A DNA stretch of 44,134 nucleotides from Bacteroidales bacterium (lineage in GTDB: Bacteria > Bacteroidota > Bacteroidia > Bacteroidales > UBA7960): assembly GCA_007134525.1 (NCBI GenBank), contig SLKR01000110.1, forward strand, positions 1-44,134, read 5' to 3'. The notes beneath the pieces were generated by a model, which searched no databases, was not told where the DNA came from, and worked only from the letters and a program-made list of their open reading frames with translations. Both the position numbers and the translations under genes were made by a program. Shown here piece by piece: positions 36,441 through 44,040 of the stretch. The stretch's first letter is position 1. Each line of letters begins with the position of its first letter.

Positions 36441-36472
36441 CTTGTTAGGATAAAGAATAATGTATATTTTTG
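36441..36472 (+). promoter_or_regulatory. Predicted promoter of the argR-argGH-carAB operon
   Basis: CTTG at 36441-36444 as the -33 element (one mismatch to TTTG), a 20 bp spacer, and a perfect -7 element TATTTTTG at 36465-36472. The transcript should start near 36479, about 25 nt before the argR ATG. Confidence 0.6.
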
Positions 36473-36497
36473 CACTTTATATGCATATTTATACATT
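36459..36497 (+). promoter_or_regulatory. Tandem ARG boxes (ArgR operator)
   Basis: Two 18 bp sites, 36459-36476 and 36480-36497, separated by 3 bp, so their centres are 21 bp apart, as in classical E. coli operators. Against the ARG-box consensus (wnTGAATwwwwATTCAnw), the second site matches except at two positions and the first except at three. The first site covers the -7 element and the second the expected transcript start, so binding should block the promoter. Confidence 0.65.
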
Positions 36498-36503
36498 ACA
36501 GCC

Positions 36504-36992
36504 ATGAGATCACAACGACTACTTGCGATCAAAAAGATCATCCAGACCGAGAAGATCGGCAACCAGGAAGAGCTCCTTCAAAGATTAACAGATCAGGGAT
36601 TCGACCTCACCCAGGCAACAGTTTCCCGAGACCTTAAAGCCCTGCAGGCCGGCAAAAAGGCAGACCCGGAAAAGGGCAGTATATTGTACCTTCCCGGGCA
36701 GAGCGGGTCACTTCAGGATTATCCGTCAATAGACCAGTCATTGCTTACCTCGGCATTCCAGTCGGTCCAATTTGCCAACCAGTTCGGTGTAATAAAGACC
36801 ATCCCCGGCTATGCCAACAGTGTGGCAGTTGCTATCGACAAAGCAGGCAGGCATGAAATAGTTGGTACAATTGCCGGCGACGACACAATACTGCTTATAC
36901 CCCAGGAGGGCATGGATAAAAATGCAGTAAAAAAAGCCTTACAGATCATTTTTCCGGGGCTCGATGATGTAATATTCTCTCCCGGTTACTAA
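36504..36992 (+). CDS. argR: Arginine repressor ArgR
   Basis: A 162-residue transcription factor, slightly longer than E. coli ArgR (156). The N-terminal winged helix-turn-helix spans about 1-65, with the recognition helix TQATVSRDLKAL. The C-terminal domain that forms hexamers and binds arginine carries EIVGTIAGDDTILLI (about 125-140), with the conserved Gly-Thr and Asp-Asp pair. The frame extends upstream to 36414, but homology begins at the ATG used, and upstream lie the promoter and operator. It leads the arginine cluster: argG starts 48 bp downstream with no clear promoter between. Tandem ARG boxes in front suggest that it represses itself and the operon when arginine is abundant. Confidence 0.93.
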   Translation: MRSQRLLAIKKIIQTEKIGNQEELLQRLTDQGFDLTQATVSRDLKALQAGKKADPEKGSILYLPGQSGSLQDYPSIDQSLLTSAFQSVQFANQFGVIKTIPGYANSVAVAIDKAGRHEIVGTIAGDDTILLIPQEGMDKNAVKKALQIIFPGLDDVIFSPGY

Positions 36993-37040
36993 AACAATAA
37001 CAAACAGATTCATCAATACTTAATCTCTTTTAAATGCCTT

Positions 37041-38336
37041 ATGAACTACAATAAACAGGAAAAGATAGTACTTGCTTACAGCGGGGGATTGGACACATCA
37101 GTAATACTGAAATGGCTCATAGACCAGGGATACGAGGTAATAGCATACATTGCCGACGTAGGTCAGGAAGATGATTTTCAGGAGGCCAAAAAAAAGGCTC
37201 TGCAGATAGGGGCCAGTGAAGTTTATATAGAGGATCTCCGGGAGGAGTTCGTAAGGGACTTTATATTTCCGGCGATCCAGGCATCTGCAATATATGAGAA
37301 CCGTTATCTGCTCGGTACTGCCCTGGCAAGGCCCCTTATTGCAAAAAGACAGATTGAGCTGGCTGCTGAAACGGGCGCATCATACGTATCGCACGGAGCC
37401 ACGGGGAAGGGAAATGACCAGGTACGCTTTGAGCTCACATATTATGCACTTAACCCCTCCATAAAGGTTTTTGCCCCCTGGAAGGATCGTGAATTCCTTG
37501 AACAGTTCAAAGGCAGGACAGACATGCTGAACTATGCAGAGCAAAAAGGCATACCCGTAAAGGCATCACTTAAGAAGCCATACAGTGAGGACGACAATCT
37601 GCTGCACATAAGTCACGAGGCCGGAGTCCTTGAAGACCCTGCCTTCAAACCCGGCAAGGATATACTGTCAAGGATAACCCATCCTGCCGACGCACCCGAC
37701 AAGGTGACCAGTATAAGTATCACCTTCAGGGATGGAATACCTGTAAAGGTTGAAAACCCGGAGGAAGGTGTTTCAGTGACCGGGCATCTTGAATTGTTCA
37801 ACTACCTGAATGAGCTTGGATGCAAAAATGGCATCGGCCTGCTCGACATGGTCGAGAACCGCTATGTCGGGATAAAATCAAGGGGTGTTTACGAAACCCC
37901 GGGTGCCAGTATCCTCTTTATTGCACACATGGATATCGAAGGTATTGCAATGGACAGGGAAGTACTCAGGCTGCGGAATATGCTTTCTCCAAAGTTTGCC
38001 GAGCTGGCATACAATGGATTCTGGTACAGCCCTGAAATGGATTTTTTAAGGGCGGCACTCAACAAGAGTCAGGAACTCATTGACGGTATTGTATACCTCG
38101 GGCTATATAAGGGCAATGTGTTGGTTGAAGGCAGGGAGTCACCAAGCGCATTGTATGACAAGGACCTCTCTAGTATGGATATTGAAGGGGGTTTCGATCA
38201 GCAGGACTCGGAGGGTTTCATAAAGATAAACGCCATACGCCTTATGGCGCATCACGCCATCCTGGCGAAATCACAATCAAGGCTGAAGAAAAATAATATA
38301 ATCAACAACAGCTTAATCCAGGAGATGATAAAATGA
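37041..38336 (+). CDS. argG: Argininosuccinate synthase
   Basis: Joins citrulline and aspartate, with ATP going to AMP, to give argininosuccinate. The 431-residue protein has the N-type PP-loop SGGLDTS at 14-20, the IADVGQ motif, [16 protein letters not shown], a [12 protein letters not shown] aspartate/citrulline loop and RGVYETPG later on. The C-terminus carries about 25 extra residues beyond the usual family length near 405; they are basic and polar ([13 protein letters not shown]). Its stop overlaps the argH start (ATGA). Confidence 0.96.
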
Positions 38337-39667
38337 CGATTTGGGATAAGGGGAAAAAAACCGATGAGAGGATGATGGAGTTCACCTCAGCAAGGGACAG
38401 GGAGCTCGATCAACAGCTTCTTTGGGCTGATATTGCCGGAACTGCTGCACATGTTGTCATGCTGGGCAAAACCGGTATTATATCCGCAGAGGACTCCAAA
38501 AAAACAGTTGATGCGCTCAGGGAGATGTTTAAAGACTCCCTTGAAGGCAATGTCAGAATTGATAAAGACTCAGAAGATGTCCACAGCTTCATTGAATCAT
38601 ATCTGGAGAAAAAGACTGGTGAAGCAGGCAAAAAGATACATACCGGGAGATCCAGGAATGATCAGGTTATGGTGGCAATGCGCTTGTACATGAGGCGCAA
38701 TATGAATGAAATATGCAATCTTACCGACCGCCTGTTCTTGCTGCTCCTGAACTATGGTGAACAATACCGCGACATGGCAATGCCTGGTTACACGCATATG
38801 CAGGTTGCCATGCCATCCAGTTTCGGTCTCTGGTTCTCGGCATATGCCGAGAGCCTTGCCGACGATCTGAAGGCAATCCGGTATGCCTATTCAATGGTAA
38901 ACCAGAACCCCCTTGGCTCAGGCGCAGGATATGGGTCTTCATTTCCCCTCGACAGGGAGATGACAACGAGGCTTCTGGGTTTTGAGGAGCTGAACATAAA
39001 CCCTATATATGCACAGATGACAAGGGTAAGGGCAGAAAAGGCCTTTGCGGTTGCAATAGCATCCCTTGCCACAACAATAGGCCGGCTGGCCACAGATATC
39101 TGTATGTATTCAGGCGAAAACTTTGCATTTATCAGGATAAAAGAGGAGGTAACTACCGGATCAAGCATTATGCCGCACAAGCAGAATCCCGACCTCGCCG
39201 AGTTAATAAGGGGGCGCTGCAATATACTCCAGAACCTGCCTCAAAACATAAACATGCTGGCTGCCAACCTGCCCACAGGATACCACCGCGACTTTCAGCT
39301 GATCAAGGAGGTTCTCTTCCCGGCAACAGACACCATAAAGGATTGCCTGGATATGATGCACCTGCTTGTATCCAATATATCTGTAAGGACAGGAATATCG
39401 GGTGATCCCAGGTACACCTATATGTACAGTGTTGAGGAGGTTAACCGCCTGGTGATGAAAAATATACCTTTCAGGGAAGCTTACCACAAGGTAGCACTAA
39501 AGATACGGAAGGGTGAATTTGCACCGGGAAGAATTGTCAAACATACCCATACAGGAAGTACCGGCAATCCCTGTCTTGATAAAATAGAGGAAAAATACAA
39601 AAGGCTTAGGGGGTCCATTCCTTTCGACGAAGCTGATAAAGCAATTGAAAAATTAATGAATACCTGA
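38333..39667 (+). CDS. argH: Argininosuccinate lyase
   Basis: Fumarase/aspartase-superfamily enzyme that splits argininosuccinate into arginine and fumarate. The 444-residue protein has TGRSRND at 104-110, the catalytic-base histidine context GYTHMQ (His155), and the flexible signature loop [12 protein letters not shown] with its catalytic serine at 277/278. All hallmark residues are present. It overlaps argG by 4 bases and carA by 1 base (TGATG), so the three should be translated in close coupling. Confidence 0.96.
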
Positions 39668-40776
39668 TGAAAGATACTGTTAAGAAGAACCTTCATGAAA
39701 ATGATGCGGTACTGCAGCTGCAAAACGGAATATCATTAAAAGGAAGATCATTTGGTTACAAAAAGCGGGTTTCAGGCGAAGTGGTTTTCAATACAGCAAT
39801 GACCGCATACCCCGAGAGTCTGACCGACCCGTCATATACAGGGCAGATCCTGGTAGCGACATACCCCCTGATAGGCAATTACGGTATTCCTCCTTCCGGA
39901 TCCGTTAACGGCTTAAAGGAAAACTTTGAATCGGACGGTATACATATTGCAGGCCTTGTGGTCACAGACTATTCATGGCGCTATAGCCACTGGAATGCGC
40001 GCGAAAGCCTTGGTGACTGGTTGAAGTCCCACAGGGTGCCGGCGATCTGCGGCATTGACACCAGGGAGCTTACCAGAATTTTGCGGGAAGAAGGATGTAT
40101 GCCCGGACGAATTATTTCAGGTGGTGGTGATAGCGAAGAAGATTGGACATTTCAACCCGGACAGACTCCCGTTTCCGGGGTAAGCACAAAAGAGGTAAAA
40201 ACATACGGAAGCGGAAAATACAGGATACTTCTTGTCGACTGCGGGGTAAAGTTCAATATCATCCGCAGCCTTCTCAGGTACGATACAACCGTTGTACGAG
40301 TACCCTGGGATTATGACTGCAGCAGGGATGATTACGACGGCCTGGTTATATCCAATGGCCCGGGTGATCCGGGTTTATGCATGCCAGTTGTGGACAACCT
40401 AAAAAAGTCGTTTCTGTCAGACGCACCAATTTTCGGAATATGCCTTGGAAGCCAACTGATGGGGCTCGCATCCGGAGGGCGGACATATAAGCTGAAATAC
40501 GGTCACAGGAGTCACAACCAGCCGGTGATATGCAGTAAAGATGATCGCTGCTATATAACTTCCCAGAATCATGGATATGCACTTGACAGCTCAAGCCTTG
40601 GAGAAGGATGGGAGGTATATTTTTCCAATCTCAATGACGGAAGCTGCGAAGGTATAAAACACAGGGAGAAACCGTTTTTCGCTACGCAGTTTCACCCGGA
40701 AGCCTCAGGAGGACCAACCGATACCGCTTTCCTGTTTGATGATTTCATGAATTTAGTTACACGTTTCAGATCATAA
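39667..40776 (+). CDS. carA: Carbamoyl-phosphate synthase small subunit
   Basis: Glutaminase subunit that feeds ammonia to CarB. The 369-residue protein has the N-terminal CarA domain (GEVVFNTAMTAYPESLTDPSYTGQ) and a class I glutamine amidotransferase domain from about 185 with nucleophile Cys259 (GICLGSQ), His343 and Glu345 (QFHPEAS). The residue after CLG is Ser instead of the more common His, and QFHPEA replaces the QGHPEA usual in E. coli-like CarA, so it belongs to a somewhat different branch. Placement after argH suggests arginine-linked carbamoyl phosphate supply, while a separate pyrimidine-linked copy may exist elsewhere (inference). Confidence 0.94.
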   Translation: MKDTVKKNLHENDAVLQLQNGISLKGRSFGYKKRVSGEVVFNTAMTAYPESLTDPSYTGQILVATYPLIGNYGIPPSGSVNGLKENFESDGIHIAGLVVTDYSWRYSHWNARESLGDWLKSHRVPAICGIDTRELTRILREEGCMPGRIISGGGDSEEDWTFQPGQTPVSGVSTKEVKTYGSGKYRILLVDCGVKFNIIRSLLRYDTTVVRVPWDYDCSRDDYDGLVISNGPGDPGLCMPVVDNLKKSFLSDAPIFGICLGSQLMGLASGGRTYKLKYGHRSHNQPVICSKDDRCYITSQNHGYALDSSSLGEGWEVYFSNLNDGSCEGIKHREKPFFATQFHPEASGGPTDTAFLFDDFMNLVTRFRS

Positions 40777-40797
40777 ACCTTACATCACCCAAAAAAA

Positions 40798-43700
40798 ATG
40801 ACAGAGAACGAACCCAAACAAAATATCTCCAAAATACTGGTACTTGGATCAGGGGCACTTAAGATCGGTGAAGCCGGTGAGTTTGACTATTCCGGATCAC
40901 AGGCCCTGAAAGCACTTAAGGAAGAGGGTATCTCAACAGTACTGATCAATCCCAATATTGCAACCGTACAAACATCTGAGGGTATAGCCGACAAGGTATA
41001 CTTTCTTCCGATTACCCCTGAATTTGTCGAGAAGGTTATTAAAAGGGAAAAGCCCCAGGGAATAATGCTCTCATTCGGGGGCCAGACCGCACTTAACTGC
41101 GGTATAGCGCTGGAAGACAGCGGTGTGCTCCAAAGGGAGGGTGTCAGGGTATTGGGCACTCCGGTAGGTGCCATTAAGGCAACCGAAGATCGCGACCTGT
41201 TTATCCGCAAACTGGATGAAATTGATGTAAAGACCGCCCGAAGTCATGCTGTATCTTCTTTTAAGGAAGCCCATAAAGCAGCAGATTCTGTTGGTTATCC
41301 CGTAATTGTAAGGGCTGCTTACGCCCTTGGGGGCCTGGGCAGCGGATTTGCCAGGAACCAAAGCGAACTTGAAGATCTTTGCCGGACTGCATTCGCTTAT
41401 TCATCCCAGGTACTGATTGAAGAATCCCTGAAGGGATGGAAGGAGATAGAGTACGAAGTAGTGCGCGACAGCAGGGACAATTGCATTACAGTGTGCAATA
41501 TGGAGAATGTCGATCCTCTTGGTATACATACCGGAGAGAGCATAGTGGTGGCACCTTCACAGACCCTGTCTAACGAAGAGTACCACTACCTTCGCAGGCT
41601 TTCGATAATGATAATACGCCATATAGGGGTAGTAGGGGAATGCAATGTACAGTACGCCCTGGATCCAAAATCCCTTGATTACAGGGTAATAGAGGTAAAC
41701 GCGAGGCTATCGCGCTCCAGTGCACTTGCCTCCAAGGCCACAGGCTACCCGCTTGCTTTCGTTGCCGCAAAGCTGGGGCTTGGTTACGGTCTTCACGAAC
41801 TCAAAAACAATATTACCCAAACCACTACAGCCTTTTTTGAACCCGCACTAGACTATGTGGTCTGCAAACTACCCCGGTGGGATATGGGAAAGTTCAGCGG
41901 GGTGTCGAAGGAGATCGGAAGCAGCATGAAAAGCGTGGGTGAGGTAATGGCGATCGGACGTACCTTTGAGGAAGCGATCCAGAAGGGCATTAGAATGATC
42001 GGGCAGGGATTGCATGGATTTGTGGGCAACTCAGACCTGCAATTCGAGGATATAGAATCCGCCCTGGGCAACCCCACCGATATGCGTCTTTATGCAATCC
42101 AGGCCGCGATGGCTTCCGGATACACAACAGAAAAGATACACGATCTGACCAGAATAGACATATGGTTTCTGGACAAGCTCAGAAACATATACGAGGTAAA
42201 CATTGAACTCGGAGAATATGGGAAGCTAGAAAATATCCCGGCCGGGCTTCTTAAGGAAGCAAAGCTCAGAGGGTTCTCTGACTTCCAAATAGTCAGGTCA
42301 GTGCTTAAGTGCGACGACAGGGATTTCGAGAATAATATACACCGGCTGCGTAAAATAAGAAAAACAAAAGGGATTATACCCTATGTGAAACAAATAGATA
42401 CAATGGCAGCTGAGTATCCTGCCAAAACAAACTACCTTTACCTCAGCTATGCCGCATCCACGCACGATGTGGAATTCATCAATGACCAGAATTCGGTTGT
42501 TGTTCTGGGATCGGGTGCCTACAGGATAGGAAGCAGCGTGGAATTCGACTGGTGCGGTGTTAATGCCCTGCAAACAATTGCTGCAGAGGGGATGCGTTCT
42601 GTTATGATAAACTACAACCCCGAAACCGTCAGCACCGATTATGATGTATGTGACCGGCTTTACTTCGACGAACTGTCACTCGAAAGAGTACTCGACATAC
42701 TTGAGCTGGAAAGGCCCAGGGGGACCATAGTATCAACCGGCGGACAGATCCCGAATAACCTGGCAATGAGACTGCACAGATACAATATGCCGGTTCTGGG
42801 CACTTCACCCCTTTCAATAGACAGGGCCGAAAACCGTCATAAATTCTCGGCCATGCTTGATAAGCTCGGCATCGACCAGCCCCGATGGAAGGAGATGACA
42901 ACAATAGAAGAGATCACCGGGTTTGCAGAAAAGGTGGGATTCCCTCTGCTTATAAGACCATCTTACGTACTGTCAGGTGCTGCGATGAATATCGTTTCCA
43001 ACAGCGAGGAACTGCACCACTTCCTGACACTGGCCACAAAAGTATCAAAACAGTATCCGGTTGTAGTTACTGAGTTCATTGAAGAGGCCAAGGAAATAGA
43101 AATAGATGCCGTGGCATCTGGCGGTGAGATACTGGCATATGCACTCAGCGAACACATAGAGTTTGCCGGGGTTCACTCAGGTGATGCAACAATGGTAATG
43201 CCACCCCAGAAGCTATATTTTGAAACGATCAGAAGAGTCAAGAGGATCAGCACTGCAATCGCCCACGAACTTAATATAACCGGACCGTTTAATATGCAAC
43301 TGCTGGCCAGGGACAACCAGGTAAAGGTAATTGAGTGCAATCTTAGGGCATCCAGAAGCTTCCCCTTTGCATCCAAGGTGCTGCACTTTAACCTTATAGA
43401 GCTTGCTACAAAGGCAATGCTGGGCAAAAAAGTAGAGAAACCTTCGGGGTCAATGTTCGAAATAGACCATATAGGGATCAAGGCCCCCCAGTTCAGCTTT
43501 TCGCGCCTTGCCAAGGCAGATCCAGTGCTGGGGGTTGAGATGTCCTCCACAGGTGAAGTAGGCTGCATAGGCGACTCATATTACGAGGCCGTGCTAAAGG
43601 CAATGCTGTCGGTTGGCTATACAGTCCCGAAAAAGAACATCCTCCTCAGCACAGGCCCAATGAGGTCTAAGGTGGAGCTGATAAAATCATGCAAAATGCT

Positions 43701-44040
43701 AGTAGATAAGGGGTATGAGCTCTTTGCCACCAAAGGCACCTCTCATTTCCTTGGCCTTAACGGTATAGAGGCAACAGCACTACACTGGCCCGATGAAGAT
43801 GCCAAGCCAAATGTCCTTGATTACCTCAGGAGCAATATAATTGATCTTGTGATTAACATCCCGAAGGATAATACCCGGAACGAATTGTATAATGACTATA
43901 CTATCAGGAGGAATGCCATAGACTGCAATATCCCGCTTATAACAAATGCAAGGCTTGCAAGCGCATTTATTTACTCTTTCTGTATGCTTTCGACTTCCGA
44001 ACTGCAGATAAAGAGCTGGGACGAATACTACCAGGCGTGA
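40798..44040 (+). CDS. carB: Carbamoyl-phosphate synthase large subunit
   Basis: A 1080-residue synthetase making carbamoyl phosphate from bicarbonate, ammonia and two ATP. Two homologous ATP-grasp halves are visible: the first begins with KILVLGSG and GEFDYSGSQALKALKEEG, and the second with VVVLGSGAYRIGSSVEFDWCG near residue 565. The oligomerisation segment lies between them, and the last 140 residues form the MGS-like allosteric domain (ATKGTSHFLGLNGI, ending NARLASAFIYSFCM). In E. coli that domain binds ornithine and UMP; I cannot assign the binding residues here by eye. The GEFDYSGSQ form resembles the CPSase II-like branch. It starts 21 bp after carA and is the last gene of the arginine cluster. 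Confidence 0.96.
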   Translation: MTENEPKQNISKILVLGSGALKIGEAGEFDYSGSQALKALKEEGISTVLINPNIATVQTSEGIADKVYFLPITPEFVEKVIKREKPQGIMLSFGGQTALNCGIALEDSGVLQREGVRVLGTPVGAIKATEDRDLFIRKLDEIDVKTARSHAVSSFKEAHKAADSVGYPVIVRAAYALGGLGSGFARNQSELEDLCRTAFAYSSQVLIEESLKGWKEIEYEVVRDSRDNCITVCNMENVDPLGIHTGESIVVAPSQTLSNEEYHYLRRLSIMIIRHIGVVGECNVQYALDPKSLDYRVIEVNARLSRSSALASKATGYPLAFVAAKLGLGYGLHELKNNITQTTTAFFEPALDYVVCKLPRWDMGKFSGVSKEIGSSMKSVGEVMAIGRTFEEAIQKGIRMIGQGLHGFVGNSDLQFEDIESALGNPTDMRLYAIQAAMASGYTTEKIHDLTRIDIWFLDKLRNIYEVNIELGEYGKLENIPAGLLKEAKLRGFSDFQIVRSVLKCDDRDFENNIHRLRKIRKTKGIIPYVKQIDTMAAEYPAKTNYLYLSYAASTHDVEFINDQNSVVVLGSGAYRIGSSVEFDWCGVNALQTIAAEGMRSVMINYNPETVSTDYDVCDRLYFDELSLERVLDILELERPRGTIVSTGGQIPNNLAMRLHRYNMPVLGTSPLSIDRAENRHKFSAMLDKLGIDQPRWKEMTTIEEITGFAEKVGFPLLIRPSYVLSGAAMNIVSNSEELHHFLTLATKVSKQYPVVVTEFIEEAKEIEIDAVASGGEILAYALSEHIEFAGVHSGDATMVMPPQKLYFETIRRVKRISTAIAHELNITGPFNMQLLARDNQVKVIECNLRASRSFPFASKVLHFNLIELATKAMLGKKVEKPSGSMFEIDHIGIKAPQFSFSRLAKADPVLGVEMSSTGEVGCIGDSYYEAVLKAMLSVGYTVPKKNILLSTGPMRSKVELIKSCKMLVDKGYELFATKGTSHFLGLNGIEATALHWPDEDAKPNVLDYLRSNIIDLVINIPKDNTRNELYNDYTIRRNAIDCNIPLITNARLASAFIYSFCMLSTSELQIKSWDEYYQA

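Follow-up and report, generated by a model that had tools for sequence, protein, structure and literature searches.

A tandem ARG-box pair over the core promoter of a predicted autoregulated argR-argG-argH-carA-carB operon in Bacteroidales

The 86-bp intergenic region between an 822-codon gene and argR in a Bacteroidales genome holds two ARG-box-like palindromes laid over a Bacteroidota core promoter, and the comparative evidence gathered here makes it very probable that an autoregulated argR-argG-argH-carA-carB operon has its operator-promoter at this site and is repressed by arginine-bound ArgR. The region lies in a stretch of 44,134 nucleotides (the window), which is an entire contig whose end comes shortly past carB. 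A first-pass annotation of the window had proposed that ArgR has its operator on the promoter of argR and controls the arg and car genes from there. Comparison across genomes supports this arrangement, from which we infer that ArgR binds, that a hexamer bridges the boxes, that arginine is required, and that the outcome is repression and not activation.

Results

The operon and its repressor

In the window argR stands at the head of the gene order, followed by argG, argH, carA and carB (Table 1), with 48 bp between argR and argG, overlaps of 4 bp between argG and argH and of 1 bp between argH and carA, and 21 bp between carA and carB. The TAttTTTG element in front of argR is the sole plus-strand candidate for a -7 element between 21148 and 41961, and no further TAnnTTTG was found on the plus strand from 36473 to 41960. 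Since the window's genome has an ornithine carbamoyltransferase and a profile search of it returned no argC, the starting point for arginine synthesis by the operon is probably ornithine or citrulline and not glutamate. The genes argR and argG were found together in 19 genomes, argR without argG in one, and argG without argR in two. Of 21 genomes in the window's genus only 7 have argR, always with argG; it is absent wherever argG is absent, and argC is missing throughout. In this genus the block from argR to carB (36504-44040) reads as an accessory module for arginine that was either inserted or lost at a single site.

Table 1. Positions in the window of the candidate operator-promoter and of the genes around it
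Feature	Position	Strand	Remark
822-codon gene	ends 36417		upstream neighbour of argR
-33 element, TTG of cTTG	36442..36444	+	TTG-N20-TAnnTTTG match
ARG box 1, 18-mer AATGTATATTTTTGCACT	36459..36476	+	contains -7 element; core TGTATATTTTTGCA 36461-36474
-7 element TAttTTTG	36465..36472	+	fits consensus TAnnTTTG
3-bp gap between 18-mers	36477..36479	+	expected transcription start (about +1 to +3), from -7 position
ARG box 2, 18-mer TATGCATATTTATACATT	36480..36497	+	5' untranslated region; core TGCATATTTATACA 36482-36495
argR, ArgR/AhrC arginine repressor, 162 aa	36504..36992	+	TIGR01529, E 1e-35
argG, argininosuccinate synthase	37041..38336	+	TIGR00032, 482.9 bits
argH, argininosuccinate lyase	38333..39667	+	TIGR00838, 326.5 bits
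carA, carbamoyl-phosphate synthase small subunit	39667..40776	+	TIGR01368, 419.5 bits
carB, carbamoyl-phosphate synthase large subunit	40798..44040	+	TIGR01369, 1494.5 bits

The ArgR protein matches its family profile over the full length (residues 4-148 of 162 align to positions 2-144 of the 146 in TIGR01529), with a score of 122.9 bits that falls slightly under the curated cut-off of 130.45, and the aligned sequences of 13 family members find solved arginine repressors as matches, with 1f9n at the top (E 2e-41). The DNA-binding helix TQATVSRDL is present, with S41 and R42 invariant in the 13 members, and the arginine-binding and hexamer motif GTIAGDDT, matched by motif only, lies near the C terminus at 121-128. 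Judged by this conservation of TQATxSRDL and GTIAGDDT, the protein appears competent as a repressor.

A box pair that includes the -7 element

Close inspection of the intergenic region bears out what the first-pass annotation had described, namely two ARG-box-like palindromes 3 bp apart, the first of which covers a perfect Bacteroidota -7 element. The centres of the two cores are 21 bp apart, and all 20/20 core positions are matched. The palindrome of box 1 is imperfect, for its right half reads TTTGCA where symmetry would require TATACA. A 20-bp spacer separates the upstream TTG from the -7 element, and the combination TTG-N20-TAnnTTTG occurs once in the 44-kb window, at argR (chance expectation 0.54). 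Because TAnnTTTG, the Bacteroidota -7 consensus (PMC7366714), sits at -12 to -5 (PMC9723704), transcription likely starts near 36477-36479, inside the gap and not under box 2 as had been suggested; box 1 would then extend from about -18 to -1 and box 2 from about +4 to +21.

The pair is far from what chance delivers. With three mismatches allowed, the pair pattern matches the window at argR alone (0.10 expected by shuffling) and is unique in the 2.69-Mb genome, where the reversed control gave no match; in 20,000 shuffles of the intergenic region the score never rose above 18, short of the 20/20 of the real sequence. The same pattern search found no second tandem operator in the window's genome, so control of other arginine genes is unsupported there. 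A genome-wide scan for single boxes proved too unspecific (119 one-mismatch matches against 40 in the control), and the other zero-mismatch single boxes in the genome have no partner at 21 bp. One perfect single ARG-like palindrome, TGTATATTTATGCA, lies about 0.35 kb before ilvD (G000 C52:18714-18727, L024), with a weaker box 150 bp off and no partner at 21 bp.

Spacing and linkage to argR across the order

The strongest single result came from a search of 393 genomes of the order in which the gap between the cores was left free from 2 to 14 bp. It returned 28 perfect sites, against none for the reversed control, and 27 of these have the inter-core gap of 7 bp seen in the window (3 bp between the 18-mers), the remaining one having 8; the spacing of the boxes is fixed to the base pair. 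When one mismatch was allowed, the pair was present in 51 of 295 genomes of the order and the pattern read backwards in none. Among 83 Bacteroidota argR upstream regions, 39 score at least 17/20 at a spacing of 21, with at most 9 at every other spacing.

A search of 59 relatives found ArgR proteins in 20. The pair stands before argR in 15 of the 18 with both argR and a full upstream region, so that the operator withstood an attempt to refute it by lack of conservation in close relatives; a strict pair is absent at argR in the other three (G052, G055 and G056). A two-mismatch pair in G050 was counted as background, since a control match occurs in that genome too. At the site loci newly fetched in the order-wide search, argR is present in 23 of 26, mostly directly behind the boxes, and it is absent within 1.5 kb in three. 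Within the window's genus, the six argR carriers with an upstream flank share the same upstream gene and have pair scores of 19-20/20; in the 12 genomes without argR, the DNA behind that upstream gene scores 10-13, which is the background level. Judged by these scores, the boxes follow the argR gene within the genus.

Pairs were also observed away from argR. In a same-family relative without detectable argR or argG (G025 C22:35815-35849, L145), a 19/20 pair with spacing 21 follows the same upstream gene and now precedes an amidohydrolase gene, the first T of its -7 element being changed to C; it looks like an operator left over after loss of the operon. A perfect pair flanked by a fabF-like and an unrelated gene, with argR absent within 1.5 kb (L270, G570 C17:70130-70164), is either another leftover or a different ArgR target. 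A one-mismatch pair lies near a trpB-like gene with argR absent nearby (L274, G681 C1051:9102-9136).

Since the neighbours of argR are always near as well, linkage by itself might point to some other local regulator; the pair could be a genuine operator that serves another protein, or else an RNA leader or a signal for translation. We consider this improbable, because the pair precedes argR in genomes of many families and its core conforms to the general ARG-box pattern, spaced by 3 bp as in E. coli (PMC6640053). The leader RNA, moreover, folds no better than shuffles (z -0.78) and has no Rfam match, and box 2 is not a translation signal, because its distance from box 1 is constant whereas the ATG lies anywhere from 0 to 54 nt away, depending on the genome.

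Proposed mode of repression

In the preferred reading, an operator-promoter repressed by ArgR, plentiful arginine would let an arginine-bound ArgR hexamer occupy the two boxes at once, next to each other at a distance of two DNA turns. With box 1 over the -7 element and box 2 over the first transcribed bases, RNA polymerase would be excluded and the whole operon, including argR itself, repressed; when arginine falls, ArgR would leave and the operon would be read. As the boxes lie on the only recognisable promoter of the operon, in a layout that recurs across much of the order, the operon probably shuts itself off at high arginine.

ArgR can activate elsewhere, as at the E. coli ast operon (PMC3293853), and it might here bind and activate, or weakly damp its own synthesis while argGH-carAB stay little regulated. 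This is a quite remote alternative: with boxes over the -7 element and the start, the polymerase has no room, as is usual in repression; the boxes are 3 bp apart, like those at structural genes in E. coli and unlike the pair at E. coli argR with its 2 bp; and the genes of the operon are biosynthetic.

Box 1 as operator and core promoter

The overlap of box 1 with the -7 element raises the matter of what is conserved there. The -7 element is in frame in box 1 at 34/34 Bacteroidales sites, in box 2 at 0/34 and in the outgroup box 1 at 0/9, where the outgroups are Spirochaetes and Marinimicrobia argR genes with the same 21-bp pair and the 34 aligned sites share descent, so that the counts are not independent trials. 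At core position 10, where the score allows A or T, these 34 sites always have T in box 1 and always A in box 2; T in box 1 thus stands at 34/34 against 1/9 in the outgroup, which has A in 8/9 (Fisher p = 6e-8). Since the element is in every Bacteroidales box 1 and in no box 2 or outgroup box 1, we conclude from this pattern that box 1 serves as operator and core promoter, fitted in Bacteroidales to the Bacteroidota promoter. Its right half would be shaped both for ArgR (..TNTNCA) and for the Bacteroidota sigma factor (TAnnTTTG).

The left half-site tells the same box apart from an ordinary promoter. TGNA directly precedes TAnnTTTG in 40 of 76 argR promoters, compared with 16 of 535 (3%) other sites in the same DNA, an enrichment of about 17-fold; because a promoter needs TAnnTTTG and not TGNA, box 1 is more than a promoter. 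A TTG at a spacer of 18-21 is found in 19 of the 34 conserved argR promoters, where shuffles lead one to expect 2.2. Between the cores, where length is conserved and sequence is not, the mean information per column is 0.38 bit, compared with 1.65 for box 1 and 1.54 for box 2, the box values being raised by selection on score while those of the gap and of position 10 are not.

The notion that only the Bacteroidota promoter is conserved, the boxes being no more than a chance AT-rich match around TATATTTTTGCA, a frequent promoter form, can draw on the perfect TAnnTTTG in box 1 and on the CA that directly follows 19% of background TAnnTTTG sites, but it is the least credible of the alternatives and already contradicted by the enriched left half-site, by the fixed spacing of box 2, which has no promoter element, and by the Spirochaetes and Marinimicrobia pairs, which exist without an in-frame TAnnTTTG and so make the ARG-box pair independent of the Bacteroidota promoter.

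Taxonomic limits and variants

The earlier claim that the operator layout is kept in Bacteroidota on a different core promoter stands for many Bacteroidales; the layout is relaxed in Bacteroidaceae. No pair was seen upstream of the argR genes fetched from other Bacteroidota classes, and a look through the listed members of the other orders in the class yielded no argR. In Bacteroidaceae, assigned by close match to the ArgR of Bacteroides mediterraneensis (144 of 151 genomes have ArgR), box 2 is retained, box 1 has mostly lost its left half and the gaps are 1-2 bp longer, the distance from the -7 frame to box 2 being 22 bp in 43/76, 23 bp in 18/76 and 21 bp in 9/76.

In several genera of Bacteroidaceae a further palindrome resembling an ARG box lies about 42-44 bp before box 2 (L059, L071, L074, L108, L114 and others), and one Prevotella lineage has CTGCAAAAATATGCAG at -63 (L069, L076, L078, L079, L081, L082, L089 and L092). 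These extra palindromes may replace box 1. We do not claim that the partner box moved to -42 or -63, multiples of 21 bp, as the signal was weak on re-test: in 130 Bacteroidaceae genomes with genera weighted equally, z was about 2 at -42 to -44, and -63 came mainly from the one Prevotella lineage.

One history that would unite these variants, to which we give about even chances, is that Bacteroidales merged operator and core promoter, leaving the right half of box 1 doubly selected, and that Bacteroidaceae undid the merger, possibly with a replacement box upstream. Under the same history a sigma element would have replaced the symmetrical half-site, and Bacteroidaceae would have lost the left half while the gap grew by 1-2 bp. 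If true, the merger and its undoing form a natural series for the rebuilding of an operator around a different sigma factor.

Beyond the phylum, argR genes of Spirochaetes (L103, L109, L111, L120) and Marinimicrobia (L095, L110, L112, L123) are 37-43% identical to Bacteroidales argR, and several of them have the same 21-bp box pair. An old transfer of argR together with its operator among Bacteroidales, Spirochaetes and Marinimicrobia is possible.

Discussion

Transcription-factor operators in Bacteroidota are poorly charted, and in the open-access literature we found neither a paper on ArgR operators in this phylum nor a description of an ARG box that contains the Bacteroidota -7 element. A tandem ArgR operator is of a known kind; the variant in which one ARG box contains this element is conserved across many Bacteroidales families. 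The E. coli operator geometry is thus found again in a phylum whose core promoter differs, with the spacing kept to the base pair and one half-site bent to fit the sigma element. The pair makes a clean query for sites of arginine control in Bacteroidales at large, and serves as a test case for the joint evolution of operator and promoter.

Comparison with known ArgR operators and promoters

The half-site core in the window's group is TGYATA/TATRCA, unlike the TGAAT/ATTCA core of the E. coli ARG half-site. In E. coli, argR is not known to be the first gene of an arginine operon. Operators of E. coli arginine genes consist of two 18-bp imperfect palindromes 3 bp apart that overlap the promoter (PMC6640053, PMC6245113), and those of carAB P2, artJ and artP resemble the window site in all three respects: paired 18-bp palindromes, a 3-bp gap and promoter overlap. 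The E. coli pairs overlap sigma-70 promoters (at carAB P2, the -35 element), whereas box 1 of the window itself contains TAnnTTTG. The E. coli argR operator is likewise an ARG-box pair on the repressor's own promoter, with a gap of 2 bp compared with 3 bp in the window. Since the gap in E. coli is 3 bp at structural operators and 2 bp at argR (PMC3293853), the window's operator has the structural-gene gap, and the spacing of 3 bp and 21 bp first likened to that of E. coli agrees with the structural-gene operators and departs from that of argR.

Bacillus AhrC and Streptomyces ArgR belong to the same ArgR/AhrC family and, as in the window, have tandem boxes before arginine operons; the Streptomyces boxes are 2 bp apart and those of B. 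subtilis argC 11 bp (PMC3293853). Both elements of the Bacteroidota primary-sigma promoter, TTG/TTTG at about -33 and TAnnTTTG at about -7, are present in the window with their 20-bp spacing and, unlike in an ordinary promoter of this class, the -7 element belongs to a predicted repressor box.
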